DNA of 64,000 nucleotides from NCBI RefSeq assembly GCF_014170335.1, contig NZ_LZZS01000004.1, forward strand, positions 62,001 to 126,000, read 5' to 3'. A model generated the notes under the pieces. It searched no databases, was not told the DNA's origin, and saw nothing but the letters and a program-made list of their open reading frames with translations. A program made the position numbers and the translations under genes. Positions within the stretch are counted from its first letter, which is position 1. Each line of letters starts with the position of its first letter. Shown piece after piece: positions 12,888 to 39,628 of the stretch. Origin of the DNA: Achromobacter sp. UMC46. GTDB taxonomy: Bacteria; Pseudomonadota; Gammaproteobacteria; Burkholderiales; Burkholderiaceae_B.

Positions 12888-14204
12888 ATGGCGCGCGCCA
12901 GGAAACACAAATCCGTCGAAAGCCAGCTGTTCGTCTATGTGGACATCCGCGGCGAAGCGGTCCTGACCGGCGTGCTGACGCTGGACGACTCGGACGAGAA
13001 CCATTTTTTCGCCGAATTCACGTATGTGCAGTCTTATGCGGACGATCCGCGCGCCTTTGCGCTGGACCCGCTGAACTTGCCCCTGATCGACGCCAAGACG
13101 ACTTTCCGCACCGAAAGCCGCTACGAGACGCTGGGTGCGATCTTCGATGCGGCGCCGGACGCCTGGGGCCGCAATGTCATGCGCCTGGACAAAGCCGGCG
13201 CCCGGGTGACGGAAGACGAAGTGCTGCTGCGGGGACGGGGCATGGGCGTGGGCGCGCTGTTTTTCAGCGCGCGCCCACTGACGCCCAACATGCGCAAGAC
13301 CTATCGCCTGCCGGAAATCAGCCAGTTGGAATCGCTGGCGGATCTGCTGACCGACATCGATCAGGGCGTCCAGCCCAAGGGCCTGTACCGGGACATCCTG
13401 GGCAGTTCCTGGGACATCGGCGGCGCGCGACCCAAGACCATCGTGCGCGACGGGCAGGGCGAGATGTGGATCGCCAAGTTTCCGCGCCAAGGCGATTCGT
13501 ATGACCGGCAACGCGTCGAGTTCGCGAACCTGGAGATGGCGCGGGCGATCGGGCTGACCGTGCCCGACATCCACCTGACCGACACCCATCTGGGCGCGGT
13601 GCTGCTGACCCGGCGCTTCGACCGCGAACGGCTGCCGGCCGAGCGCGGCGGGGAACCCGTGGTGGCGCGCCGCCATTTCCTGAGCGGCGCGTCGCTGATC
13701 AGCCCGTCGGCGCAGATCGGCAAGCGCGAACTGGATGGCGCACGCGGCAAGGCCACGTATTCGTATGCGCGGCTGGCGGATGTGCTGCGCCGCATCTCGT
13801 CGAATCCGGTCCAGGACCTGAAAGAACTGTATGCCCGCATGATCCTGAACGTGGCGGTACACAACACCGACGACCATCTGAAGAATGTGGGCTTCGTGAA
13901 AGACGAAGGCGCAGGCACGTACCGGCTGTCGCCGCTGTTCGACGTGGTCACGCAGGAAGGGTCGGCCAAGCATTACCTGCACATCGGCGCGGCCGGGCGC
14001 GACAGCACGTTCGAGAATTGCCTGACCGAGTACCGGCGCTTTGGCTTGCGGTCCGAGGCGGCGGCGCAATCGATACTCGACCGCGTGCGGGAAGTCGTGT
14101 CGGAACGCGCCGAATTCTATGAACGCGCAGGGATGAGCCGCGGCGAAATCGTGCAGGTGGAAGCGACGTTGACGGCGTGGCGGCACGGTATATTGCCGGT
14201 ATGA
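12888..14204 (+). CDS. hipA: HipA-family serine/threonine kinase toxin
   Basis: The protein has 438 residues, the usual HipA length. The N-terminal coupled region (FVYVDIRGEAVLTGVLTL) leads to the Ser/Gly P-loop-like segment GSSWDIGGARPK (near 166-177), a Lys-bearing strand (EMWIAKFPRQGD), the catalytic loop HNTDDHLKN near 325-333 and the metal-binding Asp in LSPLFDVV. E. coli HipA phosphorylates GltX and is controlled by autophosphorylation of a P-loop Ser; the corresponding Ser is present here. It follows hipB by nine bases, and its stop overlaps the ATG of a LysR gene (ATGA). Confidence 0.92.
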   Translation: MARARKHKSVESQLFVYVDIRGEAVLTGVLTLDDSDENHFFAEFTYVQSYADDPRAFALDPLNLPLIDAKTTFRTESRYETLGAIFDAAPDAWGRNVMRLDKAGARVTEDEVLLRGRGMGVGALFFSARPLTPNMRKTYRLPEISQLESLADLLTDIDQGVQPKGLYRDILGSSWDIGGARPKTIVRDGQGEMWIAKFPRQGDSYDRQRVEFANLEMARAIGLTVPDIHLTDTHLGAVLLTRRFDRERLPAERGGEPVVARRHFLSGASLISPSAQIGKRELDGARGKATYSYARLADVLRRISSNPVQDLKELYARMILNVAVHNTDDHLKNVGFVKDEGAGTYRLSPLFDVVTQEGSAKHYLHIGAAGRDSTFENCLTEYRRFGLRSEAAAQSILDRVREVVSERAEFYERAGMSRGEIVQVEATLTAWRHGILPV

Positions 14205-15100
14205 AAAAGCTGGATATTCCTGCACTGGAAATCTTCGTCGCGGCCGTCGAAGAAAAGAGCCTGTCGAAAGCGGCCGAACGGGAAAATCTGGTGACGTCCG
14301 CCGCCAGCAAACGGGTGGCCGAGCTGGAACGCCACCTGGACCGGACGCTGTTGCACCGCCATGGCCGTGGCGTCGAACCCACGCCCGCGGGTGCCTTGCT
14401 GTACCAGCGCGCCAAGGCTATCTTGCGCAGCGTCCAACTGACGGAGCAGGCGATCAACGGCTTCTCCCTTGATGGGCAGGCGAAGATCCGGCTGGCTTCC
14501 AACCCGTCCACCATCCTGCAGTTCCTGCCCGGCGTGATGGGGCGCTTTCTGGCGGGCCGCAGCGATGTCAGCGTGGACCTGCTGGAAGGCCACAGTTACG
14601 ACATTCCGCGCCTGGTGGCCGAAGCGTCGGTCGATATCGGCATCTACCACGCGGATCATCCCGTGCCCGGGGTGGCTTCGTTCCCGTTCCGGCGCGACCG
14701 CGTGGGGCTGGTGGTGCCCGTCGGCCATCCGCTGGCCGACCGGACGGAGCTGTTCCTGGAAGACGCGCTGGACTATGACCTGCTGGGCTACTTTCCCCGG
14801 CATTCGCTGGACCAGTTCCTGGCGTATGCCGGGCAGACGCTGTCGCGGCCGCCCAACGTCAAGCTGCAAGTGTCCAACTTCGAAACCCGGTGCCGGATGA
14901 TCCGCGAAGGCCTGGGCATCGGCGTGGTGCCGGAAGGCATCGCGCGCCATTATCTGGCGTCGATGGGGCTTGTGCTGCTGCGGCTGCGCGATGACTGGGC
15001 CGAACGCCAGTTCTATGTCTGCGTGCGCGACACGGCGCAACTGGCGCGCCCCGTGGAAGAATTGCTAAAAGCGCTGACGGCGTCCGAGCCGGCGCGATAG
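14201..15100 (+). CDS. LysR-family regulator translationally coupled to hipA
   Basis: The protein has 299 residues. The ATG at 14201 overlaps the hipA stop in an ATGA junction, which implies translation coupled to the toxin gene. The helix-turn-helix covers about 1-62 (LEIFVAAVEEKSLSKAAERENLVTSAASKRVAELER) and the effector-binding domain about 92-295. The start of the latter, IRLASNPSTILQFLPGVMGRFL, is typical. Its targets are unknown; the convergent catabolic genes beginning at 15126 are candidates by proximity only. A long GC hairpin covers its stop codon. Confidence 0.92.
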   Translation: MKKLDIPALEIFVAAVEEKSLSKAAERENLVTSAASKRVAELERHLDRTLLHRHGRGVEPTPAGALLYQRAKAILRSVQLTEQAINGFSLDGQAKIRLASNPSTILQFLPGVMGRFLAGRSDVSVDLLEGHSYDIPRLVAEASVDIGIYHADHPVPGVASFPFRRDRVGLVVPVGHPLADRTELFLEDALDYDLLGYFPRHSLDQFLAYAGQTLSRPPNVKLQVSNFETRCRMIREGLGIGVVPEGIARHYLASMGLVLLRLRDDWAERQFYVCVRDTAQLARPVEELLKALTASEPAR

Positions 15101-15125: not shown

Positions 15126-16010
15126 CTATTCGCCCAGGCGCGCCTCGGCCGCCTGCGCCAGTACCGGCCGCAGATAGGCCAGGAACCGGTCGGGGTCTTC
15201 GCTCATGGGAAAGTGGCCCATGCCTTCCATGATCTGCCAATGGGATCCCGCGATGCGCCCGGCCAGGAACTCGGTGTCTTGCGGCGTGCAGGAATAATCG
15301 TATTCGCCGGTCAAGAGCCACAAAGGGCAGCGGCGGGTGTCGATCCCGGCCACGCGGTCGCGGATATCGCCGTCGGCCGTGTAGAAGTGCAAGTCACCCT
15401 TGAACACGCCCGGCCCGCTCTGCATGTAGTGCCATAGCGTTTCCCAGCGGTGGTTGTCGGGGCTGCCCGGGCCGACCAGGCCCGATACGATGCCGGCGCA
15501 GACCTCGCCGCCGTGCACGTCGGGCCGGTTCAGCCATTCCAGGTCGTAATAGGGATCCACATGGGCGCCCGATTGCAGCCCGATCGCGCCGCCGAAGCGC
15601 TGCGGGTGTTCCAGCGCCAGATGCAGCACGATGCGCCCGCCGATCGAGCACCCCATCACTAGCGGTCGGTCCAACGCCATGGCGTCGGCCACGGCGATGA
15701 TGGCTTGCGCGTAGTCCTCGGACGTCAGCCGGTAGGTTTCCTGCTGCCAGCCCTCGGGCGGCGACGATTTGCCGTGCCACGGCAGGTCGAAGGCGATGAC
15801 GCGGAAGGACTCCAGGATTCGCGGGTCGTTCATCACCGCGCGGTACTGGCGGGTATCGGCGCCGGCGGTATGCAGGCACAGCAACGGGAAGCCGCTGCCG
15901 GCTTCCTCGACATACACGCGGTGCGCGCGGCCGCCCAGCGTCAAATGCAGGTAGCGCCCGATCACCGGCTCGAAGACGGCGGCGGGGGGATTGGCTTGTT
16001 GCGGATTCAC
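15126..16010 (-). CDS. Alpha/beta-fold hydrolase, last gene of the leftward catabolic operon
   Basis: The protein has 294 residues from a GTG at 16010, which overlaps the upstream stop (GTGA) and has AAGGAGC nearby; the open frame continues upstream but is antisense or another gene. The triad is visible: Ser in MGCSIGGRIVL, Asp in LLTGEYDYSC and His in MEGMGHFPM. VEEAGSGFPLLCLHTAGADTRQYR contains the oxyanion region. The fold is close to meta-cleavage-product hydrolases and carboxylesterases. It is the seventh gene of the operon that starts at 21828 and likely cleaves a C-C or ester bond in the pathway. Confidence 0.88.
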   Translation of the reverse strand: MNPQQANPPAAVFEPVIGRYLHLTLGGRAHRVYVEEAGSGFPLLCLHTAGADTRQYRAVMNDPRILESFRVIAFDLPWHGKSSPPEGWQQETYRLTSEDYAQAIIAVADAMALDRPLVMGCSIGGRIVLHLALEHPQRFGGAIGLQSGAHVDPYYDLEWLNRPDVHGGEVCAGIVSGLVGPGSPDNHRWETLWHYMQSGPGVFKGDLHFYTADGDIRDRVAGIDTRRCPLWLLTGEYDYSCTPQDTEFLAGRIAGSHWQIMEGMGHFPMSEDPDRFLAYLRPVLAQAAEARLGE

Positions 16011-16393
16011 GAGGACGCTCCTTCGGCGCGCGGGCAGGCCAGCACGTCCTTGAAATACAGCAAGTTGGACATCAGGGGATACAGGTCGCCTTCGGCGCGC
16101 AGCCGCCGGAATTTCACCAGCGCCATCAGGTCGTGGTAGCCCGGCGGGGGCAGCGGGCGCCAGAACTGCGCCCAGTCCTCGGCCGATGCCCGTAGCGCGA
16201 ATTGCCAGCGCGGCATCACGAAGGGGCCCGGACGCACCGTTTGGATACGGCCCGCCGCCACCGTGATCAGGTAGGCGTCCGGGCCGCGTTCCAGCAGGAA
16301 CACGGTGTTCAGGTGCCGCCCCCGCCACACCAGGCGGTCCTGCCGGTTTACGGCGTCGGCCAGGCGGTTCAGGATGAAGTCGTCGTCTTGCAT
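16007..16393 (-). CDS. Small SCP2-like protein of unknown function
   Basis: The protein has 128 residues from an ATG at 16393. It has no signal peptide or membrane helix. The pattern of a charged N-terminal helix followed by strands (TVFLLERGPDAYLITVAAGRI) and then WAQFWRPLPPPGYHDLMAL resembles the sterol-carrier-protein-2-like fold, but the match is made by eye and is tentative. It sits between the metallo-beta-lactamase-fold gene (13 bases upstream) and the alpha/beta hydrolase, whose start it overlaps, so it is firmly part of the operon. A role in binding a hydrophobic or CoA-linked intermediate is a guess. Confidence 0.65.
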   Translation of the reverse strand: MQDDDFILNRLADAVNRQDRLVWRGRHLNTVFLLERGPDAYLITVAAGRIQTVRPGPFVMPRWQFALRASAEDWAQFWRPLPPPGYHDLMALVKFRRLRAEGDLYPLMSNLLYFKDVLACPRAEGASS

Positions 16394-16406
16394 CAGGTTT
16401 TCCTTG

Positions 16407-17222
16407 TCACAAGGGCGGCATGTCCAGCCGGTAGATGCCCGCTTCGCCATCGGCCAGCGGGTACTGCCGGGCCACGGCGGGATCGTGGCCCGGCACGATG
16501 TGCGCGTCGGAGTCCGCCAGCGTGCGGATGCGCGTATAGCCGTCGAGCATCTCGCCCAGATGGAAGATAGCGGGAAACGGGTTGTTGTCGGTGAAGTTGC
16601 GCGTGTAGTGCAGGGCGTCCGAGGCCAGCACGATCCAGCCGCGCGCGGTATGCGCCCGCACCACTTGCAGGCCCTGCGTATGCCCGCCGACGCGATACAG
16701 CTCCAATCCGGGCGCCAGCACGGCGTCGCCGTCATGGAAACGGACGCGCCCCGCGTAGACCTGGCGTACCACCGCCTGCACGTCGTCGACCGAAAAGAAA
16801 TGCCGCATGCTCGCAAAGCACATGTACCGGCCGGTGGCGTACCGCATTTCGTCATCCTGCAAATGGACCTGCGCGCCGGGATAGGCCTCGACATTGCCGG
16901 CGTGGTCATAGTGCAGGTGCGTCAGGACCAAGTGGTCGATGTCGCCCGGCGCCAGCCCCAGCCGGGCCAGCGCTGTTTCGGGATGCAGCGTGAAGGCCCG
17001 GTCCCGCGCGCGCGCCGAACACGCGCTGAAACCGGTATCGACCAGCACATTGCCGGCCGGCCCCCGCAGCAGCCAGCAGTAGAAGTCCATCGGCATCGGC
17101 CCGTCGTGCACATCGGCGCGCGACAGGAAATTGTCGGCGGCGCGCCGGGTCACGCTGGCATAGCGGATGGCGTAGGCCTCGTAGACCGGCAGCGGGGCGT
17201 TGGCGGCCGGCGGCGCGGTCAT
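16407..17222 (-). CDS. Metallo-beta-lactamase-fold hydrolase (AHL-lactonase-like)
   Basis: The protein has 271 residues from the ATG at 17222, which overlaps the stop of the upstream receptor gene (ATGA). The zinc motif H102-L-H104-Y-D106-H107 (THLHYDHAGN) is intact, and later ligands are visible in VGGHTQG, LASDALHY and VPGHDP. The layout matches the N-acyl-homoserine-lactonase family (dinuclear zinc lactonases). In this catabolic operon hydrolysis of a lactone intermediate is more likely than quorum quenching, but both are possible. No signal peptide is present. Confidence 0.88.
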   Translation of the reverse strand: MTAPPAANAPLPVYEAYAIRYASVTRRAADNFLSRADVHDGPMPMDFYCWLLRGPAGNVLVDTGFSACSARARDRAFTLHPETALARLGLAPGDIDHLVLTHLHYDHAGNVEAYPGAQVHLQDDEMRYATGRYMCFASMRHFFSVDDVQAVVRQVYAGRVRFHDGDAVLAPGLELYRVGGHTQGLQVVRAHTARGWIVLASDALHYTRNFTDNNPFPAIFHLGEMLDGYTRIRTLADSDAHIVPGHDPAVARQYPLADGEAGIYRLDMPPL

Positions 17223-18442
17223 TTCTTGACCAATTTGCATTGGCTTTCGGCCAAGGGCATGAACGCCTGGTCGCCCGGCACCGTCTTGACGATCTTGTAG
17301 TAGTCCCACGCGGCCTTGGATTCCTTCGGCGACTTCACCTCGACGACGTAGGTGTCGTGGACCAGTTTCCCGTCTTCGCGCAGGCGGGCGTTGCGGGCGA
17401 ACGCATCATGGATCGGCATGCCGCGCAGCGTTTGCATCACGGTATCCGCCTTGTCCGAGCCGGACTTTTCGACGGCGCGCAGGTAGTTCAGCACCGCGGA
17501 ATACTGGCCGGCCTGCAAGGCGGTGGGCATCTTGTTCGCTGCCTTGAAGAAGCGCTGGGCGAACGCGCGCGTTTCGTCGTCCATGTCCCAATAGAAGGTC
17601 TCGGCGAACGTCATGCCTTGGGCCGCATCCAGGCCCACGCCATGCACGTCCGTGATGCTCATCAGCATGGCGACGAGCTTCTGGCGGTCGGCCAAGCCGA
17701 ATTCCCGCGCCTGCTTGATCTCGTTCTGCAGGTCTGCGCCGGCGCTGGCGAACCCCACCGCGTCGGCCTTGCTGGCCTGCGCTGACAGCAGGAAGGACGC
17801 GAAATCCGTCCCCGGGAACGGGTAGCGCACCGAGCCCGCCACCGTGCCGCCGCCTTCCTTCACGAAACGCATGCCGTCGCTTTCCAGCGAATGGCCGAAG
17901 GCGTAGTCGGCCGTGACGAAATACCACTTCTTGGCGCCCGCCTCGACCAGCGGCAGCGTGCCTACCTTGGCCAGCGCATAGGTGTCATAGACCCACTGGA
18001 CGTTGTTGGGCGAGCAGTCCTCGCCAGTGATGCGGGTGGCGCCCGCGCCCGTCACCATCGTCATCCGGCCTTTCTCGCGGGCGATGTTCATGACGGCAAG
18101 CGCGACCGCGCTGTTGCCCAGTTCGGTCACTACGTCGACTTTTTCGCGGTCCATCCACTCCCGCGCGCGGCCCGCGGCGACGTCGGTCTTGTTCAGGTGG
18201 TCGGCCGACAGCATGTCGATCGGCTTGCCCAGCACCTTGCCGCCGAAGTCCTCGATGGCCAGCTTGGTGGCCAGGACCGACCCGGGGCCGACGTTGCCCG
18301 AATACGCGCCGGACATGTCCGTCAGCACGCCAATGCGCACGACGCCGTCCGAAATGCCATCGGGCGCCTGCGCCTGCGCGGGGGCTTGGGCCAGGCCCGT
18401 GCCAGCGGCCAGGGCGAGCAGGGCGGTGATCTTCTTATTCAT
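17219..18442 (-). CDS. ABC-type branched-chain amino acid/amide substrate-binding protein (orphan)
   Basis: The protein has 407 residues. A Sec signal peptide (MNKKITALLALAAGTGLAQAPAQAQA) is followed by the type I periplasmic-binding fold of the Leu/Ile/Val receptor family (VVRIGVLTDMSGAYSGNVGPG; the WVYDTYALA and WYFVTADYAFG segments). No LivH, LivM, LivG or LivF gene is nearby, so it must use a transporter encoded elsewhere or act as a sensor. Related receptors in Alcaligenaceae and Rhodopseudomonas bind aromatic acids. It is the fourth gene of the leftward operon. Confidence 0.93.
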   Translation of the reverse strand: MNKKITALLALAAGTGLAQAPAQAQAPDGISDGVVRIGVLTDMSGAYSGNVGPGSVLATKLAIEDFGGKVLGKPIDMLSADHLNKTDVAAGRAREWMDREKVDVVTELGNSAVALAVMNIAREKGRMTMVTGAGATRITGEDCSPNNVQWVYDTYALAKVGTLPLVEAGAKKWYFVTADYAFGHSLESDGMRFVKEGGGTVAGSVRYPFPGTDFASFLLSAQASKADAVGFASAGADLQNEIKQAREFGLADRQKLVAMLMSITDVHGVGLDAAQGMTFAETFYWDMDDETRAFAQRFFKAANKMPTALQAGQYSAVLNYLRAVEKSGSDKADTVMQTLRGMPIHDAFARNARLREDGKLVHDTYVVEVKSPKESKAAWDYYKIVKTVPGDQAFMPLAESQCKLVKK

Positions 18443-18466
18443 GGTCTTCTCCTTGGAATGGGGCGG

Positions 18467-19897
18467 CTACATCTGGCTGACATACTTGACCTGCATGAAC
18501 TCCTGCAGGCCTTCAACGCCGCCTTCCTTGCCCAGTCCGCTGTCCTTGAAGCCGCCAAAGGGGGTTTCAGGCAGGGATGCCTGGCAGTGGTTGATGCAGA
18601 CGACGCCGCTTTCGATGCGTTCGGAGGCCAGCCGCGCCGTCGCCGCGTCGCGGGTGAACACATAGGACGCCAGGCCGAACGGCAGGCGGTTGGCCGCTGC
18701 CAGCGCTTCGTCCACCTCGCGGAAAGGCTGCACCAGCGCCAGCGGTCCGAAGGGCTCGGTGTTGGCGGCCAGGCATTCGGCGCTGACATCGCGCAGCACG
18801 GTCGGCGCCCAGAACCAGCCCGGCAAGTCCAGGCGCGTGCCGCCGGCGGCGACCTGCGCGCCGTGCTGGACCGCATCCGCCACCATGGACGCCATGGCGG
18901 CCAGCCGGCGGGGGTTCGCCATCGGCCCCATCTGCACGCCGGGCTCCAGGCCGTTGCCCACGCGCCAGCCTCGGGCGCGGTCGGCCAGGCGCTGTATGAA
19001 TCGTTCATAGACGCCTTGCTGCACGAACATCCGCGTGGGCGACGTGCAGATCTGGCCGCTATTGCGCAGCTTGGCGGCCAGCAGGGCATCGGCGGCGGCT
19101 TCCGGGTCGGCGTCGTCGAAGACCAGCACCGGCGCGTGGCCGCCCAACTCCAGCGTGGCGCGCTTCAGGCCGCTGGCGGCCATCACCGCAAGATCGCGGC
19201 CAATGGCGGTGGACCCGGTGAAGGTCAGCATGCGGATCACGGGTGAGGCGATCAGGCGCCGGGAGATCTCGGCCGGGTCGCCGAACAGCATGTTCAGCAC
19301 GCCGGCGGGCAGGCCGGCATCCGCCAAGGCGCGGCCGATCTCCAGCGCGATCGCGGGCGTCTCTTCGGACGGCTTGATCACGATCGAGCAGCCGGCGGCC
19401 AGCGCACCCGCGATCTTGCGCGACGGCGTGATCGCCGGCGCGTTCCAGCCCGCAAATGCGGCGACCGGGCCGACGGGTTCAGGGATGGCCAGTTGACGGA
19501 TGCCGCCGACGCGCCCGGGGATCAGGCGGCCATATGTGCGCCGGGCTTCTTCCGCCGCCCATTCGAACATCTCGGCGGCGGTTGCTACTTCCTTTTCCGA
19601 TTCGGCCAGGGGCTTGCCTAGCTCGCGGGTGATCAACCACGCCAACTGGGGCGTGCGCTCCCGCATCAGGGCGGCGGCGCGGCGCAGGACGGCCCCCCGT
19701 TCAAGCGCCGGCGTATCGCGCCAGCCGGGAAACGCGCGGTGCGCGGCATCCAGCGCCTCGTCGATGTCTTCCGGCGCGGCCACCGGCACGCGCCCCAGCA
19801 CGGCCAGCGTTGCGGGGTCGATCACTTCCAGGCTTGGGCGGTTGCCGGCGGGCACCGCGCGGCCGTCGATCAGCAGGTTCAGTTCGGGATAGCGCAT
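18467..19897 (-). CDS. NAD(P)-dependent aldehyde dehydrogenase
   Basis: The protein has 476 residues, the standard length. The catalytic set is complete: Asn152 (AGWNAP), Lys175 (IKPSEET), Glu250 (LELGGHAP) and the nucleophile Cys284 (NSGQICTSPTR), plus FTGST at about 227-231 for cofactor binding. The family is closest to succinate-semialdehyde and aliphatic-aldehyde dehydrogenases. It follows the Bug receptor gene with no gap (its ATG at 19897 abuts the receptor's stop at 19898). It should oxidise an aldehyde intermediate to the acid before CoA activation. Confidence 0.94.
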   Translation of the reverse strand: MRYPELNLLIDGRAVPAGNRPSLEVIDPATLAVLGRVPVAAPEDIDEALDAAHRAFPGWRDTPALERGAVLRRAAALMRERTPQLAWLITRELGKPLAESEKEVATAAEMFEWAAEEARRTYGRLIPGRVGGIRQLAIPEPVGPVAAFAGWNAPAITPSRKIAGALAAGCSIVIKPSEETPAIALEIGRALADAGLPAGVLNMLFGDPAEISRRLIASPVIRMLTFTGSTAIGRDLAVMAASGLKRATLELGGHAPVLVFDDADPEAAADALLAAKLRNSGQICTSPTRMFVQQGVYERFIQRLADRARGWRVGNGLEPGVQMGPMANPRRLAAMASMVADAVQHGAQVAAGGTRLDLPGWFWAPTVLRDVSAECLAANTEPFGPLALVQPFREVDEALAAANRLPFGLASYVFTRDAATARLASERIESGVVCINHCQASLPETPFGGFKDSGLGKEGGVEGLQEFMQVKYVSQM

Positions 19898-20875
19898 CTA
19901 GTCCGCCTTTGCGATGTGGCTGGTCTGCATGACTTGCGCCCAGCGTTCGGTTTGCGTGCCGATATGCCGCGCGAAATCTTCGGGGCTGCCGGTCATCGGA
20001 TACTGGCCCAGCTTCAGCAAGGCCTCGCGCGAGGCATCGGAGCTCATCACCTTGTTGATCGCGGCGTTCAACCGCTGCGTCACGGCGGGCGGCACGCCGG
20101 CGGGTGCCAGCACCCCGTTCCACGGTTCGGCGGTGAATCCGGGAATGCCGGCCGAGTCCGCCACCGTCGGCACGCCCGGCGCTACCGAAGACGGCTGGGC
20201 CGCGGCGATGCCAAGCGCGCGCATCTTGCCCGCCTGCACCTGCGGCATCGCGGCGATCGCGCTCAGGAACGCCATGTCGACCCGTCCGGCCACCAGATCG
20301 GCAATGGCCGCCGAGTCGCCCTTATAGGGGATATGGGTGATGTCGACGTGGGACGCGCTCTTGAACCATTCGCCGGCCAGGTGGTTCACGGCGCCGCTGC
20401 CGGCGGACGCGAAAGTCAGCGCGCCGGGCTTCTGGCGCGCGCCGGCGATCAATTCCTGCACGGTCTTGAACGGCGAACTTGCCGGCACGACCAGCAGGTA
20501 GGGATAGCTGGCCACCAGGCCGACCGGCTGGAAGTCTTTCAGCACCTGATAGTCGACTTTCTGCTTGTAGACCGGTTCGATCGACAGCGTGCCGCTGCTG
20601 CCGAGCATCAGGGTATAGCCGTCGGCGGCGGCGCGCTTGACCGCCTGCAGCGCCACGACGCCATTGGCGCCCGGGCGGTTTTCCACCACGATGGTCTGGC
20701 CGAGTTCGGCCTCCAGGCCACGGGCCAGATAGCGGCCGACGGCGTCCGTCGGGCCGCCGGCGGTGAACCCGATCACCAGGGTGATCGGCTTGGCGGGATA
20801 GTCCGCGGCCGCGGCGGGAAAGCCGAGCGCGGTGGCGAGCACGGGCAGCGCCCACCTGCAAAGCATGGATGTCAT
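19898..20875 (-). CDS. Bug/TctC-type tripartite tricarboxylate receptor (orphan)
   Basis: The protein has 325 residues from the ATG at 20875. A signal peptide (MLCRWALPVLATALGFPAAAA) is followed by the Bug-family signature: DYPAKPITLVIGFTAGGPTD, VVENRPGANGVVA, and IPYKGDSAAIADLVAGRVDM. These periplasmic receptors bind carboxylates or amides. The membrane partners TctA and TctB are absent, as usual for the expanded Bug family of Bordetella and relatives. It is the second gene of the leftward operon. An in-frame ATG at 20866 is an alternative start. Confidence 0.94.
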   Translation of the reverse strand: MTSMLCRWALPVLATALGFPAAAADYPAKPITLVIGFTAGGPTDAVGRYLARGLEAELGQTIVVENRPGANGVVALQAVKRAAADGYTLMLGSSGTLSIEPVYKQKVDYQVLKDFQPVGLVASYPYLLVVPASSPFKTVQELIAGARQKPGALTFASAGSGAVNHLAGEWFKSASHVDITHIPYKGDSAAIADLVAGRVDMAFLSAIAAMPQVQAGKMRALGIAAAQPSSVAPGVPTVADSAGIPGFTAEPWNGVLAPAGVPPAVTQRLNAAINKVMSSDASREALLKLGQYPMTGSPEDFARHIGTQTERWAQVMQTSHIAKAD

Positions 20876-20934
20876 GAGGGTCTCGAATAGGGAAGTGCGC
20901 GGCGCGGCGGGCGCCGGTGGCGATACGGGGGGAT

Positions 20935-21828
20935 TCAGGCGTAGCCGCGTTCGATCAGCTTGACCATCACCGGGTAGTACTCCTTGACGTAGCCCGCGGC
21001 GCGCGTGCGCTCCAGCAGGTCGTGCGTCAGCTTGGCGGCGCGGGCGTCGACGTCGCCCTGGTTCGCCAGCTCCAGCGCCAGCAGGATGTCCTTGATGGCG
21101 TACTCGGTCGGGAAGGTCTTTTCGGGGAAGGTGTCGGCGGCAAGCGCCTTCTGGCCCGGGTTGCGCAGCACGAAGCTGTCGGCCGACCCTTTGCTCAGCG
21201 CATCCAGCAGCAGCGTGCCGTCCACGCCCGCGCTGCGCCCGATGGTGATGGCTTCGGCCAGCGCATGGACGGTCATGAACACCACCATGTTGTTCATGAT
21301 CTTCACGACCTGGCCGTTGCCGATGCCGCCGCAAAGCAGCACGTCCGTGCCCATGCACGACAAATAGGGCAAGACCGCCTCGCAGTCCTCGCGGGTGGCG
21401 CCCACGGTGATCATCAGCGTGCCCAGGCGGGCGGCTTCGCGCATGCGAGCCACCGGCGCGTCGATCAACAGGATGCCATGGCCGCGCAGCACCTCGGCCA
21501 GGCGGCGGGTGCGGCCGACGTCGCTGGTGCTCATGTCGACCACGATACGCACGCGGCCGCCAGCTTCCACCAGGCCGCCCGGTCCGGTGCATACCTGTTC
21601 CACCTGCACGATGCTGGGCAGCGACAGGAACACGATCTCGGCGGTCTGCGCCACCTCGACGATCGAGGCGCAGGCGTGGCCGCCCAGTGCGCCGATGCGA
21701 GCCACCGGATCGGGGCTGATATCGGTCACGAATACCGGGTGCCCGGATTTGCGGACCAGATTGGCGCACATGGGTTCCCCCATCACGCCCAGGCCGATGA
21801 AGCCCAGCGGGGTCTTTGTCTCACTCAT
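20935..21828 (-). CDS. NAD(P)-dependent 3-hydroxyisobutyrate-dehydrogenase-family oxidoreductase
   Basis: The protein has 297 residues. The Rossmann motif GFIGLGVMGEPMCANLV is at residues 9-25, followed by VVDMSTSDVGRTR and the family's substrate region. The usual catalytic segment GxVGxGxxxKxxNN appears as GGIGNGQVVKIMNN with its Lys in place. Members include 3-hydroxyisobutyrate, tartronate-semialdehyde and 6-phosphogluconate-like dehydrogenases. It is the first gene of the leftward operon, divergent from the MmgE/PrpD gene across 21829-22062, and AAGGAGGAAGT is a good ribosome site just upstream. It likely makes the semialdehyde used by the aldehyde dehydrogenase. Confidence 0.92.
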   Translation of the reverse strand: MSETKTPLGFIGLGVMGEPMCANLVRKSGHPVFVTDISPDPVARIGALGGHACASIVEVAQTAEIVFLSLPSIVQVEQVCTGPGGLVEAGGRVRIVVDMSTSDVGRTRRLAEVLRGHGILLIDAPVARMREAARLGTLMITVGATREDCEAVLPYLSCMGTDVLLCGGIGNGQVVKIMNNMVVFMTVHALAEAITIGRSAGVDGTLLLDALSKGSADSFVLRNPGQKALAADTFPEKTFPTEYAIKDILLALELANQGDVDARAAKLTHDLLERTRAAGYVKEYYPVMVKLIERGYA

Positions 21829-22062
21829 TACTTCCTCCTTGGTATGACGTCTGTTTTTCTAGCTATTGCCATGCAGCTTACGGAAGGCCTCCGCCCGGCG
21901 GTATGAAAAATTGGCAAAGCAACTATCTCCAAATCCGCCCCCCCAAGATCAAGAACGCTCGTTTTCCTTTTTATCAATGCTGAGGCGGGGCGAACGCCTA
22001 GAGTGGACGGCAGATATCAGCGACGCCATCGCGGCGCCGCCAAGACAAGAGGAGAGACAAGC
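21829..22062. promoter_or_regulatory. Divergent promoter region of the ten-gene catabolic locus
   Basis: This 234-base gap separates the leftward operon (first start 21828) from the rightward operon (first start 22063), so both promoters must lie here. It contains an AT-rich core near 21905-21985, a poly-C run and the ribosome sites of both operons (GAGGAGAGA at about 22048). No convincing palindrome or -35/-10 pair was found by eye. No regulator gene adjoins it. Confidence 0.6.
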
Positions 22063-23418
22063 ATGCTGCTGGAGACGATCGCCGCGTATGGCGCGCAGGA
22101 CACGCTGGCCCGGTTGCCGGACGAGGTCATCCACCACGCCAAACGCGCGTTCCTGGATTGGCTGTCGGCCTTGTATCCGGGTACGCGCACCGCGCCTTGC
22201 CTGCAACTGCTGGGCGCGCATGGCGCGGAACTGGGATCGGGCGCCTCCAGCCTGCCCGGTTGCGCGACGACGGCGTTCGCGGCCACGGCGGCCTGGATCA
22301 ACGGCAGCGTGTCGCACGCCATGGAATTCGACGACATCTTTCGCGACGCGATCTACCACCCGGGCTGCCCGACCATCGCCGCGGCGCTGGCCCTGGCCGA
22401 AGAGGGCGACGCCAGCGGCCAGGCGCTGCTGAACGCCATCGTGGTGGGCTACGAGATCTCGACCCGCATCGGCGCCGCCGTGCAGCCGTCCCACTACCGC
22501 TACTTCCATACGACCGGTACGGTGGGCTGTTTCGGCAGCGCGGCGGCGGCCGCTGCCTTGTGTGCGCCGGGCGACGCCCAGGCGATGCTGCACGCGCTGG
22601 CCACCGCCGGCACGCTGGCCAGCGGCTTGCAGCAAGCGTTCCGGTCCGACGCCATGAGCAAGGCGCTGCATGCCGGCCATGCCGCCGAAGTAGGCGTGCG
22701 GGCCGGGCAGGGCGCCGCGCACGGCATCACGGGCGTGCCCGACATCCTGGAAGGCAAGGTCGGATTCGGCGCGGCCTTGGCGGAGGCCCCGGACTGGGCG
22801 GCCGCCGTCGACGGCCTGGGTCAGCGTTACAACATCCTGTCGATCACGCAGAAGAACCATGGCTGCTGCGGCCACACCTTCGCCGCCATCGACGCCGCGC
22901 TGGCGTTGCGCCAGCAAGGCTTGCGCGCGGAAGACGTGGCATCGCTGCGCGTGGACGCCTATCAGACCGCCCTGGATGTCACGGGGAACTTCACGCCAGC
23001 TACCGCTTTCGAGGCCAAGTTCAGCCTGCCTTACGTGGTGGCGCACGCGCTGGTCCACGGGTCCGTCCGGCTGGACGCCTTCAGCCCCGACCGGTTGCAG
23101 GATCCACGCGTGCGCCAGTTGATGCAACGGCTGGAGCTCTGCGCCGACCCGGCATTCACCGCCGGCTTTCCCAAGATGCGCGCCGCCCGGTTGTCGGTCA
23201 CGACCCGTGGCGGCCTGGGGCTTGAACACCATTCCCCGTACCGCAAGGGCGATCCCGAATCCCCGCTGTCCGACGCTGACCTGGACGACAAGTTCGATGA
23301 ACTGGCCGGCCCTGTCCTGGGCGGCGCACGCGCCCGTGCGTTGCGCGTTGCCGTCTGGCGCCTGGACACGATGCCGGTGCGCGCCTTGCGCCTGGCCGCC
23401 GACATGCCCCGGCTGTGA
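22063..23418 (+). CDS. MmgE/PrpD-family protein (2-methylcitrate dehydratase / cis-aconitate decarboxylase fold)
   Basis: The protein has 451 residues from the ATG at 22063, which has GGAGA ten bases upstream. The family signature SHAMEFDDIFRDAIYHPGCPTIAAALALAE lies near 84-113, and KNHGCCGHTFAAIDAAL near 265-280 contributes conserved His and Cys positions. Family members dehydrate 2-methylcitrate, decarboxylate cis-aconitate or hydrolyse/isomerise related polycarboxylates. No PrpB or PrpC is present, so propionate catabolism is unlikely. It heads the rightward operon; its stop overlaps the next start (TGATG). Confidence 0.9.
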   Translation: MLLETIAAYGAQDTLARLPDEVIHHAKRAFLDWLSALYPGTRTAPCLQLLGAHGAELGSGASSLPGCATTAFAATAAWINGSVSHAMEFDDIFRDAIYHPGCPTIAAALALAEEGDASGQALLNAIVVGYEISTRIGAAVQPSHYRYFHTTGTVGCFGSAAAAAALCAPGDAQAMLHALATAGTLASGLQQAFRSDAMSKALHAGHAAEVGVRAGQGAAHGITGVPDILEGKVGFGAALAEAPDWAAAVDGLGQRYNILSITQKNHGCCGHTFAAIDAALALRQQGLRAEDVASLRVDAYQTALDVTGNFTPATAFEAKFSLPYVVAHALVHGSVRLDAFSPDRLQDPRVRQLMQRLELCADPAFTAGFPKMRAARLSVTTRGGLGLEHHSPYRKGDPESPLSDADLDDKFDELAGPVLGGARARALRVAVWRLDTMPVRALRLAADMPRL

Positions 23419-25556
23419 TGCCTTCATCCCCTTTTCCGCAACTCATGACATCCGCCGCATCCATGTCTTCTTCCTTATCGCCGTCCTTCGCCGACGCGCT
23501 GCTGTCCCCCCGCGCGGTCGCCCTTGTGGGCGCCTCGGGCGACGTGCGCAAAAACACGGCACGCCCCTTGCGCTTCATGCGCAAGCACGGCTACACCGGT
23601 GCCGTCTATCCCATCAACGCCGCCCGCGCCGACATCCTGGGCGAACGCGCCTACCCGTCGCTCGCCGGCCTGCCAGGGCCGGTGGACCATGTCTTCGTGA
23701 TGATTCCCGGCAGCGACGTGGCCGCGCTGCTGCCCGCTTGCGCCCAGGCCGGCGCGCGGGTCGTGACGATCTATTCCGACGGGTTCGGCGAAACCGGCCC
23801 CGACGGCCAGGCCCGCCAGGCCGCGCTGGTCGCTCAGGCGCGCGGCCTGGGTCTGCGCTTGCTGGGCCCGAACAGCATCGGCCTGGCCGATCTGCACACC
23901 GGCGGGATCCTGTCCGTGAACGCCGCCTTCGAGGCCGATACGCTGCTGGCCGGCGACATCAGCATGGTGTCGCAGAGCGGATCGATGATGGGGTCGCTGC
24001 TGTCGCGCGCCGCGGCCCGCGGGTTCGGCTTCGCCAAATCGGTGTCGGTGGGCAACGAAAGCGATATTTCCGTCGGCGAGGTCGTCGACGCGCTGGTGGA
24101 CGACCCGCACAGCAAGGTCATCCTGCTGTTCCTGGAGACCTTGCGCGACGCGCCCACGCTGGCCCGGGCGCTGACGCGTGCGCGTGCTTGCGGCAAGCCG
24201 GTGATCGCCTACAAGCTGGGCCGCTCCGAGCAAGGCGACGCGCTGGCGCAATCGCATACGGGCGCGATGGCGGGCAACGACGCGGCGGTCGACGCCTTCC
24301 TGAAGGCGCATGGCGTGATGCGGGTCCAGCATCTGGAGACCTTGTTCGAGATGGCGCCGCTGGCCTCGCGCTATGCCAGGCCGCAGCGCGCACCGGCTGC
24401 CGCGACCGGGCCGGCCGCCCGGGTGGCCGTGATCACCACGACCGGTGGAGGCGCCGCCACCGTGGTCGACAACCTGGGGCTGCACGGTCTGGCCGCCGTG
24501 GCGCCGCCGCCGGAGTTCGTCCGGTTGATCGCGCAAGCCGGCCTGAACATCCGCGAAACGCCCGTCATCGACCTGACGCTGGCCGCCACCAGCGCCCAAT
24601 ACAAGATGCTGCTTGAACACCTGCTGCGCGCCGACTGGTGCGACGCGGTCTTGAGCGTGGTCGGGTCATCGGCGCAATTCCATCCCGGCCTGGCGGTCAA
24701 GCCCTTGCTGGAGGCGGACAAGCCGGACGGCAAACCCCTGGCGGTCTTCCTGGCGCCGGAAGCGCCGGAATCGCTGGCGTTGCTGCGCGCGGGCGGCATC
24801 GCCGCCTTCCGCACCCCGGAGGCGTGCGCCGACGCGTTGTCGGTGTTCTTCGCCGATGCGGGCCGTCCGCCTGCCGCCGGCGGCCCCGTCGCGTGGCCGG
24901 CAGACCTGCCGCAACACGGCATGCTCAGCGAACACCAGGCGGGGACGTTGTTCCGCAGCCTGGGCGTGCCGGTGGCGGGCGGCCAGCTTCTGGCGCCGGA
25001 TGCGCTTCACCACGCCGTGCCTTACCCGCTGGTCGCCAAAGTGTGCTCGCCGGACCTGGCGCACAAGACCGAACTGGGCGCCGTCCACGTGGGCATCGCG
25101 GACGCAGAGGCGTTGTCCGACGCCGTGCGCCGGATGCTGGAGTCCGTGCGCCGCGAGGCACCGCAGGCGCGGATCGACGGCATCCTGGTCCAGCCCATGG
25201 AAAGCCGGCTGATCGAATTGATCCTGGGTTATCGCCACGACCCCTTGGTGGGCCCCACGGTGCTGTTGGGCGCGGGCGGCATCGCCGCCGAATTGGCGCC
25301 CGACTTCGCGCTGCGCCTGGCACCGGTGGACGTGGACGAAGCCCGCCGGATGATCCTGGAAGTGCGGCAGACCCGCCTGATCCGCGGGTTCCGCGGCTTG
25401 CCCGAAGGCGATTGCGACGCGCTGGCCCACGCCATCGCGGCATTTTCACGGCTGGCGTGCGTGTCCGGCGCTCGGGTCGAAGAAGCCGAAATCAACCCCT
25501 TGTTCGTCCGCGCCGACGGCGTGGTCGCCGTCGACGGGCTGGCGCGCCTGGCCTGA
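23418..25556 (+). CDS. NDP-forming acyl-CoA synthetase (acetate-CoA ligase family)
   Basis: The protein has about 712 residues. It has the fused layout of NDP-forming acyl-CoA synthetases: CoA-binding domain (residues about 10-140, SPRAVALVGASGD and YPINAARADILGERAYPSLAGLP), two succinyl-CoA-ligase-like flavodoxin domains (LGPNSIGLADLH, SMVSQSGSMM, and the phospho-His loop SHTGAMAGND with catalytic His), then a C-terminal ATP-grasp domain from about 490 (YPLVAKVCSPDLAHKTELGAV). The ATG at 23418 overlaps the previous stop. It would activate the pathway's acid to its CoA thioester at the cost of ATP to ADP. Confidence 0.92.
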   Translation: MPSSPFPQLMTSAASMSSSLSPSFADALLSPRAVALVGASGDVRKNTARPLRFMRKHGYTGAVYPINAARADILGERAYPSLAGLPGPVDHVFVMIPGSDVAALLPACAQAGARVVTIYSDGFGETGPDGQARQAALVAQARGLGLRLLGPNSIGLADLHTGGILSVNAAFEADTLLAGDISMVSQSGSMMGSLLSRAAARGFGFAKSVSVGNESDISVGEVVDALVDDPHSKVILLFLETLRDAPTLARALTRARACGKPVIAYKLGRSEQGDALAQSHTGAMAGNDAAVDAFLKAHGVMRVQHLETLFEMAPLASRYARPQRAPAAATGPAARVAVITTTGGGAATVVDNLGLHGLAAVAPPPEFVRLIAQAGLNIRETPVIDLTLAATSAQYKMLLEHLLRADWCDAVLSVVGSSAQFHPGLAVKPLLEADKPDGKPLAVFLAPEAPESLALLRAGGIAAFRTPEACADALSVFFADAGRPPAAGGPVAWPADLPQHGMLSEHQAGTLFRSLGVPVAGGQLLAPDALHHAVPYPLVAKVCSPDLAHKTELGAVHVGIADAEALSDAVRRMLESVRREAPQARIDGILVQPMESRLIELILGYRHDPLVGPTVLLGAGGIAAELAPDFALRLAPVDVDEARRMILEVRQTRLIRGFRGLPEGDCDALAHAIAAFSRLACVSGARVEEAEINPLFVRADGVVAVDGLARLA

Positions 25557-25594
25557 CCCCCCATTTCTCCACCTTTGCATCGGGAACCCCCTAG

Positions 25595-26746
25595 ATGGAC
25601 TTCACACTGACTCCGGAACAGCAGGACTTTCAAACCGCCGTGCGCCGGTTCGCAGACCGCGAATTGCGCGAGGGCGCTGTCGCGCGCGCCCATTCCGACG
25701 ACTACCCCTGGGATGTCGCCCGCAAGATGGCCGGGCAGGGCTTGCTGGGCATCACCATCGCCGAACAGGATGGCGGCGTGGGCGGTTCGTTGATGGACGC
25801 GGTCATCGCCATCGAGACCGTGGCCTCCGTCTGCCCGCGCAGCGCGGACGTGGTGCAAGCGGGCAACTTCGGCGCCATCCGCGTGCTGGCCGAGTACGGC
25901 AGCGCGCTGCAAAAGCAGAAGTACCTGACGGCGCTGCTGGCGGGCGAAGGCCTGATCTCCGTCGGCATGACCGAACCCGACGCCGGGTCTGCGGTGACCG
26001 AGCTTAAGACCAGCGCCACCCGCGCCGAAAGCGGATGGCGCATCAACGGCACCAAGATCTTCACCACCCATGGCCCGCACGCCAGCGTGATCCTGACCTA
26101 CGTGCGTTTCGGTCCGGGCACGGGCGGCATCGGCTCGGTCCTGATCGACACCAAGGCCGAGGGCGTGAAGCTGGGCAAGCGGTCCGCGTTCATGTCCGGC
26201 GAGGAGTGGGTCGAAATCTTTTTCGACAACGTGTTCGTGGCGGACGACATGGTCGTCCTGGGCGAGGGCGGCTTCAAGAAGCAGATCGCCGGCTTCAACG
26301 TGGAGCGCATCGGCAACACGGCGCGCTCGCTGGCGCTGGGGCGCTATGCATACGAAGAAGCGCGCAACTGGGCGATGCAGCGCAAGCAGTTCGGCCGCCT
26401 GTTGTGCGAATTCCAGGGCTTGCAGTGGAAGTTCGCGGACATGCGGATCAAGCTGGATGCCGCCCAATTGCTGCTGTATCGGGCGGCCAGCGGCGCGGAT
26501 ACCGGATTCCCGTCGGCGACCGACACGGCGATCGCCAAGGCCTATTGCAATCAGGTGGGCTTCGACGTGGCCAACGACGCCTTGCAGGTGCTGGGCGGGT
26601 TGGGCTACAGCCGGGAGTCGCTGGTGGAGTATTGCGTGCGCCGGTGCCGCGGATGGATGATCGCCGGCGGCTCTATTGAAATCTTGAAGAACCGCATCGC
26701 CGAAGGCATCTTCGAACGCAGTTTTCCGCAGCGGCCCCCGCGCTGA
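25595..26746 (+). CDS. Acyl-CoA dehydrogenase
   Basis: The protein has 383 residues. Features of the FAD-dependent family: MDFTLTPEQQDFQTAVRRFADREL at the N-terminus, GMTEPDAGS and WRINGTKIFTTHG for FAD/substrate binding, RKQFGRLLCEFQGLQWKFADM, and YSRESLVEYCVRRCRGWMIAGGSIEILKNRIAE, where the region usually carrying the base Glu is present. The GGxxI-E segment appears as GGSIEI, giving the probable catalytic Glu. It follows the acyl-CoA synthetase by 38 bases and likely oxidises the CoA ester that enzyme makes. Confidence 0.94.
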   Translation: MDFTLTPEQQDFQTAVRRFADRELREGAVARAHSDDYPWDVARKMAGQGLLGITIAEQDGGVGGSLMDAVIAIETVASVCPRSADVVQAGNFGAIRVLAEYGSALQKQKYLTALLAGEGLISVGMTEPDAGSAVTELKTSATRAESGWRINGTKIFTTHGPHASVILTYVRFGPGTGGIGSVLIDTKAEGVKLGKRSAFMSGEEWVEIFFDNVFVADDMVVLGEGGFKKQIAGFNVERIGNTARSLALGRYAYEEARNWAMQRKQFGRLLCEFQGLQWKFADMRIKLDAAQLLLYRAASGADTGFPSATDTAIAKAYCNQVGFDVANDALQVLGGLGYSRESLVEYCVRRCRGWMIAGGSIEILKNRIAEGIFERSFPQRPPR

Positions 26747-30422: not shown

Positions 30423-31388
30423 TCATTGCGGCGGAATGCCGGTTTCCTTGACGATCGCGGCCCATTTGCCGATCTCGGCGACGACAAATGCGCCGAATTC
30501 GGCGGGGCTTTGCGTCTTGACGGTCAGCCCCTGGCGCGCATACGTCTCTTGCAGTTCCTTATTTGCCAACGCGACGTCCAGCGACCGCGCCAGCCGATCG
30601 GCCACGGGCTGAGGCAAACCGGCGGGCCCCATCAGGCCGAACCAGACCGTCAGGTTGAATCCCGGCGCGCCGGTTTCGTTCAGCGTCGGAATGTCGGGCG
30701 CCAGCGGGAAGCGGTCGGGCGTGCTGACGCCGTAAGTCTTGACCTTGCCCGCGCGGGCCTGCTGCAGGCCGTTGGCCAGGTCCGTGAAGGTCAGATCGAC
30801 CGTGCCGCCGATGACGTCTGTCAGCGCCTGCGGACCGCCCCGATACGGCACGGCGGTGACCGTGATGTCGCCCATCGCGGCCAATTTGGCCCCGAAGACC
30901 TGGGCGCTGCCCGATCCGTAGGCGTAGGTGAGCTTGCCCGGGTGCTTGCGGCCATAGTCGAATAGTTCGCCGACGGTTGCGCCCGCCACCTTGGGCGACC
31001 CTACCAGCAGGTACGGGGTTTCCGCGACGGCGCCGATAGGCGACAGGTCTTTCGCGGGGTCGTAGGGCAAGTCCTTGAACAGGCTTACGCCGCTGGCCGC
31101 GGTGGACACGCCGACCACCACCAGCGTGTAGCCATCGGGCTTGGCCCGGGCCACGTCATGGGTGCCGATGATGCCGTTGGCGCCGGGCTTGTTCTCGACG
31201 ACGACGGGCTGGCCCAGGTCTGCCGCCATGTGCTTGCCCAGGCTGCGCGCCACCACGTCGGTGATGCTGCCCGGCGGAAAGGGGACGACCATCCGGATCG
31301 GGTGGTCGGGATAGGGGGATGTCGCCAGCGCCGGGGCGGCGGCGGTCAGACCCAACGTCAAGGCGATGGAAAGGCCGGTTCTGTGCAT
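30423..31388 (-). CDS. Bug/TctC-type periplasmic receptor (orphan)
   Basis: The protein has 321 residues, with a signal peptide (MHRTGLSIALTLGLTAAAPALA). The family motifs are YPDHPIRMVVPFPPGSITD, VVENKPGANGIIGTHDV and VPYRGGPQALTDVIGGTVDL. It differs clearly from the other Bug protein at 19898-20875, so it is a separate receptor and not a recent duplicate. TctAB is absent. It lies between DUF1185 and a dehydrogenase on the same strand and probably binds the carboxylate that this operon degrades. Confidence 0.94.
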   Translation of the reverse strand: MHRTGLSIALTLGLTAAAPALATSPYPDHPIRMVVPFPPGSITDVVARSLGKHMAADLGQPVVVENKPGANGIIGTHDVARAKPDGYTLVVVGVSTAASGVSLFKDLPYDPAKDLSPIGAVAETPYLLVGSPKVAGATVGELFDYGRKHPGKLTYAYGSGSAQVFGAKLAAMGDITVTAVPYRGGPQALTDVIGGTVDLTFTDLANGLQQARAGKVKTYGVSTPDRFPLAPDIPTLNETGAPGFNLTVWFGLMGPAGLPQPVADRLARSLDVALANKELQETYARQGLTVKTQSPAEFGAFVVAEIGKWAAIVKETGIPPQ

Positions 31389-31443
31389 GGTGTTGTCTCC
31401 CTTATGGCAGGTATGCCTTTGTTATAGGTGTCTTGCTACGCGC

Positions 31444-38343: not shown

Positions 38344-38357
38344 AAAGAACCTTAGAC

Positions 38358-39614: not shown

Positions 39615-39628
39615 GCCGGAGCCCAAGC

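Follow-up and report, generated by a model that had tools for sequence, protein, structure and literature searches.

A conserved eleven-gene block in Achromobacter probably opens an oily ester or lactone and channels a branched four-carbon diacid to central metabolism

A stretch of 64,000 nucleotides from Achromobacter sp. UMC46 (contig NZ_LZZS01000004.1, positions 62,001 to 126,000; hereafter the window) carries a conserved block of eleven genes that, judging from sequence and fold, probably open an oily ester or lactone and channel a branched four-carbon diacid to central metabolism. The block consists of two modules, namely a left operon, or front end, of hydrolases, dehydrogenases, receptors and a small SCP2-fold protein, and a core of a LysR-type regulator, an MmgE/PrpD-family enzyme, a nucleoside-diphosphate-forming (NDP-forming) coenzyme A (CoA) ligase and an acyl-CoA dehydrogenase. 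We give an even chance to the reading that the whole is a LysR-controlled catabolic block acting, front end and core together, on a 2-substituted succinate. The core is a variant of described methylsuccinate-type logic, and the whole set is new within the open-licence literature matches listed.

Conservation and layout of the block

The eleven genes form a real, conserved unit. A search with the MmgE protein against 150 related genomes, 43 of them of the same genus (own genome included; two of the 43 less than 80% complete), recovered a copy at an identity of at least 78% in 15 of the 43, again with the own genome included. Gene order and strands are kept in all 14 other genus loci fetched, the LysR gene is present in each, and 12 hold all eleven genes, which together with the own genome gives 13 complete blocks of 15. 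The remaining two loci (L035 and L037) lack the metallo-hydrolase alone, which consequently seems dispensable. Genes in the fetched loci were predicted with a codon-usage caller that overlooks some, chiefly where the DNA is AT-rich; presence was therefore counted again by tblastn for the genus and for the SCP2 loci described below. Since flanking genes vary among the genus loci, those of L032, L035, L037, L043 and L044 being unlike the window flanks, the segment from LysR to dehydrogenase is the conserved unit.

The initial annotation had described ten genes at 15126..26746 as one catabolic unit and had proposed a search for the same set and order in other genomes. Gene calls and domain matches confirm the ten genes, and the single order in 15 of the 43 genus genomes fits one unit; the adjoining LysR gene, which makes it an eleven-gene unit, and the two-module structure had been missed. 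The features are as follows.

14177..15100 (alternative start 14201), plus strand: LysR-type regulator, eleventh gene of the unit (Pfam LysR_substrate and HTH_1)
15126..16010 (read 16010..15126), minus strand: alpha/beta hydrolase with GTG start and GCSIG nucleophile elbow (Abhydrolase_1)
16007..16393, minus strand: small SCP2-fold protein of 128 amino acids (AlphaFold2 model and structure matches; Pfam blank)
16407..17222, minus strand: metallo-beta-lactamase-fold hydrolase with HLHYDH motif, N-acyl-homoserine-lactone-lactonase-like (Lactamase_B)
17219..18442, minus strand: periplasmic receptor of the Leu/Ile/Val type (Peripla_BP_6)
18467..19897, minus strand: aldehyde dehydrogenase (Aldedh)
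19898..20875, minus strand: Bug/TctC receptor, start 20875 or 20866 (TctC)
20935..21828, minus strand: beta-hydroxyacid dehydrogenase (NAD_binding_2 and NAD_binding_11)
21829..22062, no strand: 234-base divergent promoter region containing the palindrome-like GAACGCTCGTTTTC, about 110 bases upstream of the MmgE start
22063..23418, plus strand: MmgE/PrpD-family enzyme that probably epimerises a 2-substituted succinate (family match and isomerase residues)
23418..25556, plus strand: NDP-forming acyl-CoA ligase with fused subunits, start maybe 23445 or 23463 (domain matches)
25595..26746, plus strand: acyl-CoA dehydrogenase with Glu237 at the isovaleryl-CoA-dehydrogenase-type site (Pfam domains, alignment)

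Outside the genus, Bordetella genomosp. 12 (L065) carries all eleven genes and Bordetella sp. LUAb4 (L068) nine of the eleven, the metallo-hydrolase being among those missing. L066 and L067 hold LysR, MmgE, ligase and dehydrogenase without the left operon and have flanking genes in common with L068; the three form one clade among the block carriers in a quick tree, a position that suggests loss of the left operon within this clade.

Association of front end and core

The SCP2-like family, searched in 399 genomes of the order, was found in 26 (one of them weak), and of its 24 places in other genera 20 were fetched (all but G056, G226, G437 and G466). In all 20, an alpha/beta hydrolase (53-76% identical) stands on the same strand beside the SCP2-like gene, within 42 bases in 19 and at 671 bases in one (L175). 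Within 6 kb of the SCP2-like gene, beta-hydroxyacid and aldehyde dehydrogenases occur in L180, L182 and L186, the last with a metallo-beta-lactamase-fold gene too, and the aldehyde dehydrogenase is the only block enzyme to accompany the pair in L183. The same distance takes in ligase and MmgE in L177 and, in L181, the acyl-CoA dehydrogenase as well; in the 14 remaining loci, some of them on short contigs, none of the other block enzymes has a clear relative there. Furthermore, LysR adjoins MmgE in several other genera, Cupriavidus basilensis KF708 and OR16 have the core, and a plasmid of Cupriavidus sp. U2 (L102) carries left-type genes, partly fragments, near the core.

These distributions bear on the doubtful alternative that the two operons are unrelated and have only a divergent promoter region in common, with the left operon acting on another substrate. 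Such an arrangement would agree with the presence of the core without the left operon in all six same-family loci fetched outside the genus (L045-L050, some of them without a full core beside MmgE) and in L066 and L067, as well as with 18 of the 20 non-genus SCP2 loci, where core genes are absent from the surrounding 6 kb (some contigs being short). It is harder to reconcile with the recurrence of left-type genes beside core genes in L177, L181, L084, L068 and L102, with the occurrence of the whole block, LysR included, at differing flanks within the genus, and with the co-occurrence of the SCP2-like gene and core-type MmgE in 12 of the 399 genomes against 3.0 expected (Fisher p 3.9e-6) or, without the two full-block genomes, in 10 of 397 against 2.7 expected (p 6.3e-5), kinship and genome size being ignored in both values. 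The link between the modules is thus likely real but, as many core relatives lack the front end and most SCP2 loci lack a core gene nearby, not obligatory.

The MmgE/PrpD enzyme

Going by its active-site residues, the window MmgE is a probable epimerase of a 2-substituted succinate. Excerpts of PMC12290011 describe an MmgE/PrpD enzyme of Pseudomonas aeruginosa and Cupriavidus necator as a (S)-(R)-methylsuccinate isomerase (Msi) that acts on the free acid only, whose gene clusters with that of methylsuccinyl-C4-CoA dehydrogenase (Mcd), and give His88, Glu91, His102, Tyr148, His152, Lys202 and Lys266 as active-site residues; the genetics of the itaconate/methylsuccinate cluster are treated in PMC9875883, likewise cited from excerpts, which also covers transfer of the itaconate cluster to Pseudomonas putida KT2440. 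In the alignment the window MmgE retains all seven (H85, E88, H99, Y145, H149, K200 and K264), Y145 being the tyrosine second base of the isomerases. The pocket Trp, Glu and Arg of Msi-type sequences are replaced by Gln190, Gln191 and Gly270, and in a quick tree the core-type clade (76 rows, support 99), which spans Burkholderiales, Pseudomonas and Acinetobacter, stands apart from five Msi-type rows (support 100) chosen by gene context, PA0881 and E6A55_22590 themselves being absent from the tree.

Comparison with the methylsuccinate branch of the itaconate cluster (Msi and Mcd with Ict, Ich and Ccl) qualifies the earlier claim that no recognised pathway has this gene set: it stands for the whole set, for which no matching description was found among the open-licence matches listed, and does not stand for the core, whose logic is described in excerpts of PMC12290011 and PMC9875883. 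Both systems combine an MmgE/PrpD enzyme with CoA activation and a flavin dehydrogenase, and they share the seven active-site residues, the placement of the dehydrogenase glutamate and, at the P. fluorescens copy, an adjacent LysR gene; the P. aeruginosa cluster also includes a lactonase gene according to the same excerpts. They differ in that the methylsuccinate system employs a CoA transferase, whereas the block has an NDP-forming ligase, lacks Ich and Ccl, and adds a front end with a hydrolase and alcohol and aldehyde dehydrogenases; the block MmgE, moreover, falls in a separate clade with an altered pocket, and the own genome has methylsuccinate-gene homologues elsewhere.

Methylsuccinate was accordingly rejected as main substrate. 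The own genome holds an Mcd-Msi-type pair on contig C5 (77544-80100, L230) and an Ich-, Ict- and Ccl-type trio on contig C14 (83972-86771), with Ict-, Ich- and Ccl-type proteins 70, 48 and 47% identical to those of Paraburkholderia, so that methylsuccinate is probably served there, and the window MmgE belongs to the other clade. The itaconate/methylsuccinate-type genes of this genome are thus split between two contigs.

An unlikely alternative makes the MmgE a dehydratase or decarboxylase of a tricarboxylate of the aconitate, methylcitrate or tricarballylate type, with a front end that produces the tricarboxylate. The MmgE/PrpD family includes such enzymes, as the excerpts of PMC12290011 state, and the scores of the solved relatives are close, with IDS epimerase best at 112 bits and cis-aconitate decarboxylase at 107. 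TcuA- and TcuB-type genes also run together with core-type MmgE in L080, L081 and L121 (a call for which the representatives L081 and L067 score above cut-off). The decarboxylase, however, is described in PMC12290011 as working by a one-base mechanism, and the window MmgE retains Tyr145, the second base; nor is a further hydratase or lyase among the families found in the block. In the three loci, the core-type MmgE follows the TcuA- and TcuB-type genes, a thiamine pyrophosphate (TPP) enzyme pair that resembles sulfopyruvate decarboxylase subunits, and an aldehyde dehydrogenase, an arrangement that leads to this type of enzyme by another upstream route.

The acyl-CoA dehydrogenase and the CoA ligase

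The dehydrogenase has the Pfam N, M and C domains, with Glu237 in an FNVER motif and no glutamate at the site used by medium-chain acyl-CoA dehydrogenase, which places it among the flavin adenine dinucleotide (FAD)-dependent acyl-CoA dehydrogenases. According to excerpts of a preprint (PMC10925408), every known acyl-CoA dehydrogenase keeps the usual site apart from the long-chain and isovaleryl-CoA enzymes, which use an alternative one. Glu237 aligns with the NAER motif of all five Mcd-type homologues, which likewise lack a glutamate at the usual site, and two other acyl-CoA dehydrogenases of the own genome keep it there. The window enzyme is only 28-30% identical to the five, so this neighbour of MmgE does not qualify as an orthologue of methylsuccinyl-C4-CoA dehydrogenase. 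The ligase has CoA-binding, ligase-CoA and ATP-grasp_5 domains and belongs to the NDP-forming acyl-CoA ligases; against the acetate--CoA ligase alpha model it scores 291 bits, under the cut-off of 567.

Among solved structures the dehydrogenase matches 5af7 best (208 bits), which we take to be the 3-sulfinopropionyl-CoA desulfinase of Advenella, and its best NCBIfam model is 3-sulfinopropanoyl-CoA desulfinase (NF042439, 289.8 bits). Both matches would suit a core that degrades a sulfinate, in which the ligase would make a 3-sulfinopropionyl-CoA-like ester and the dehydrogenase homologue would release sulfite, as Acd does in Advenella; we consider this very improbable. The model score is less than half of the cut-off of 600, and Arg84 and Gln246 of 5af7, presumably important for desulfination, are replaced by Asp85 and Glu237, which are invariant in all 11 aligned sequences. 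Because the score is so low and both key residues differ, a desulfinase was set aside. In addition, no dioxygenase is among the families found in the block, and the relative L102 has electron-transfer flavoprotein (ETF) genes, which a desulfinase is not expected to need. The Advenella cluster, as far as excerpts of PMC5373536 describe it, shares with the block a LysR gene, an acyl-CoA dehydrogenase homologue, TctC receptors and CoA activation, there of 3-sulfinopropionate by a succinate-CoA ligase.

Gene neighbourhoods of core relatives suggest that the enzyme is a true dehydrogenase and that the substrates are substituted dicarboxylates or tricarboxylates, given the TcuA/TcuB neighbours described above, the order MmgE, ligase, ETF beta, ETF alpha and thiolase in L102, and the FadB-like and PcaF-type genes that join the core in L119 and L127 and, by annotation, in L189. 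This last locus, on the Acinetobacter plasmid NZ_CP024012.1, reads LysR, MmgE, acyl-CoA dehydrogenase, major facilitator superfamily transporter, acyl-CoA dehydrogenase, acetate--CoA ligase family protein, 3-hydroxyacyl-CoA dehydrogenase, thioesterase and pcaF; its two acyl-CoA dehydrogenases are 62-63% identical to that of the window and have the same active-site motifs.

Front-end proteins

The 128-residue protein has no Pfam match. Its AlphaFold2 model, built from 32 aligned sequences, reaches a mean predicted local distance difference test (pLDDT) score of 91.9 and has SCP2 topology over the whole chain, with SCP2 structures at the top of both Foldseek and VIA-align, so that the "SCP2-like" label of the initial annotation was right. 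By its modelled fold the protein is a probable carrier of lipids or hydrophobic substrates. The neighbouring alpha/beta hydrolase keeps its GCSIGG motif in all 14 genus copies and is PcaD-like only under cut-off. No description of this gene pair was found among the open-licence matches listed. In the alkylsulfatases SdsA1 and Pisa1, an SCP2-like C-terminal domain is likewise paired with a hydrolase of amphiphilic substrates, the catalytic domain there presumably being a metallo-beta-lactamase; in the block, SCP2 is instead a small protein of its own, and its partner is an alpha/beta hydrolase.

The metallo-hydrolase scores 72 bits against the AidB model (cut-off 360) and 59 against AttM (cut-off 390). 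The aldehyde dehydrogenase reaches 447 of 646 bits against the succinate-semialdehyde dehydrogenase model; its best solved relatives are 9zh8 (aldehyde dehydrogenase), alpha-ketoglutaric semialdehyde dehydrogenase 5x5t and succinate-semialdehyde dehydrogenase 5vbf, and it is closest to dehydrogenases of carboxylated semialdehydes. For the beta-hydroxyacid dehydrogenase, 2-hydroxymethylglutarate dehydrogenase 3cky is the best solved relative (152 bits), followed by 3-hydroxyisobutyrate dehydrogenase (133 bits).

A comparable operon is blcABC of Agrobacterium for gamma-butyrolactone (excerpts of PMC5924552), which has a lactonase-like metallo-beta-lactamase and, going by the usual assignments of blcA and blcB, an aldehyde dehydrogenase of the succinate-semialdehyde type and a hydroxyacid dehydrogenase. 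The block differs in that its lactonase-like and aldehyde-oxidising members score under the curated cut-offs, its hydroxyacid dehydrogenase is of the beta-hydroxyacid type, BlcB presumably being an iron alcohol dehydrogenase, and it continues into the epimerase, ligase and acyl-CoA dehydrogenase core.

Both receptor genes called earlier are present, and say little about the substrate. The best solved relative of the Leu/Ile/Val-type receptor is 3i09 (393 bits), and the Bug/TctC receptor has no permease beside it. The own genome holds 150 TctC-type matches (149 over cut-off) against 6 for TctA, and the receptors were for that reason abandoned as a substrate clue. Some TctC pairs on contigs C3 and C42 score identically and may be one sequence twice.

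Proposed pathway

The reactions, regulation and substrate that follow are predictions. The SCP2-fold protein would hand a lipophilic ester or lactone to the alpha/beta hydrolase with which it pairs, and the metallo-hydrolase would be a second, optional lactonase. The primary alcohol thus released would be oxidised by the beta-hydroxyacid dehydrogenase to a semialdehyde, from which the aldehyde dehydrogenase would form a dicarboxylate, namely a succinate carrying a C2 side chain. Alpha-substituted semialdehydes can racemise, for which reason an epimerase would be needed ahead of a stereoselective ligase. The MmgE/PrpD enzyme would epimerise the free diacid via an enolate, using His99 and Tyr145 as its two bases, the NDP-forming ligase would convert the 2-substituted succinate to its CoA ester, and the acyl-CoA dehydrogenase would desaturate this ester with Glu237 to an enoyl-CoA, the whole under putative control of the LysR gene. 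The sequence of steps proposed initially, from hydrolysis through alcohol, aldehyde and acid to CoA activation and desaturation, and the branched dicarboxylate as substrate, are compatible with this evidence.

Several observations weigh against an epimerase-centred block for 2-substituted succinate. The window MmgE is about 34% identical to the methylsuccinate-type homologue of its own genome and scores nearly as well with the decarboxylase as with IDS epimerase; the dehydrogenase is about 30% identical to the Mcd-type homologue there and closest, by structure and by model, to desulfinases; and the front end is missing from many core relatives, including all six same-family loci, as is the core from most SCP2 loci. 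Where relatives carry FadB-like and pcaF genes, later chemistry may depart from the methylsuccinate-type route. The alpha/beta hydrolase, the metallo-hydrolase and the two front-end dehydrogenases, furthermore, fall under the curated cut-off of every model among the matches listed (25 of 42 for the aldehyde dehydrogenase).

A more specific and rather unlikely version is a full pathway for lipophilic substituted gamma-butyrolactones or 4-hydroxybutyrate esters, in which an SCP2 carrier, a dedicated hydrolase, 2-substituted succinic semialdehyde and succinate, a new MmgE/PrpD epimerase clade and the ligase/dehydrogenase core would follow one another. If true, it would link lactone catabolism to methylsuccinate/itaconate logic and make the SCP2-hydrolase pair, together in all loci examined outside the genus, a new two-gene cassette. 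The block would extend methylsuccinate logic to larger side chains, of relevance to itaconate-derived plastics and natural lactones, and offers a testable function for a conserved clade of MmgE/PrpD, a large and mostly uncharacterised family according to excerpts of PMC12290011. The main text of a random barcode transposon sequencing paper on beta-proteobacterial dicarboxylates contains neither "PrpD" nor "NDP-forming"; a transposon library of this kind for Cupriavidus basilensis 4G11 is mentioned in PMC12543098.

Regulatory region and neighbouring genes

The pattern GAANGCNNGNTTTC, picked after viewing the alignment so that its count is descriptive, occurs 93-130 bases ahead of MmgE in 20 of the 73 loci examined (53 are without it), namely in 13 of the 15 genus copies and in L065, L070, L072, L073, L074, L085 and L116. 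Across the named loci it turned up 19 times in 2.97 million positions, a rate of 0.0015 per 250 bases. Its place is at the MmgE promoter both where LysR is adjacent and where LysR lies beyond the left operon. When 26 upstream regions were scanned for a strict T-N11-A LysR box, only L037 and L065 matched, and the window copy had none. Neither a tRNA nor an Rfam match at gathering scores occurs in the 64-kb window.

A HipA-like gene at 12888-14204 overlaps the start of the LysR gene. At its place, L031 and L038 also have a HipA-like open reading frame, and L033, L034, L036 and L039-L042 one of 429-438 amino acids, compared by place and length only. Another TctC receptor lies next to another beta-hydroxyacid dehydrogenase about 3.7 kb right of the block (30423-32352), and an efflux set of an outer-membrane efflux protein, a membrane-fusion protein and an AcrB-type pump occupies 37165-42787.

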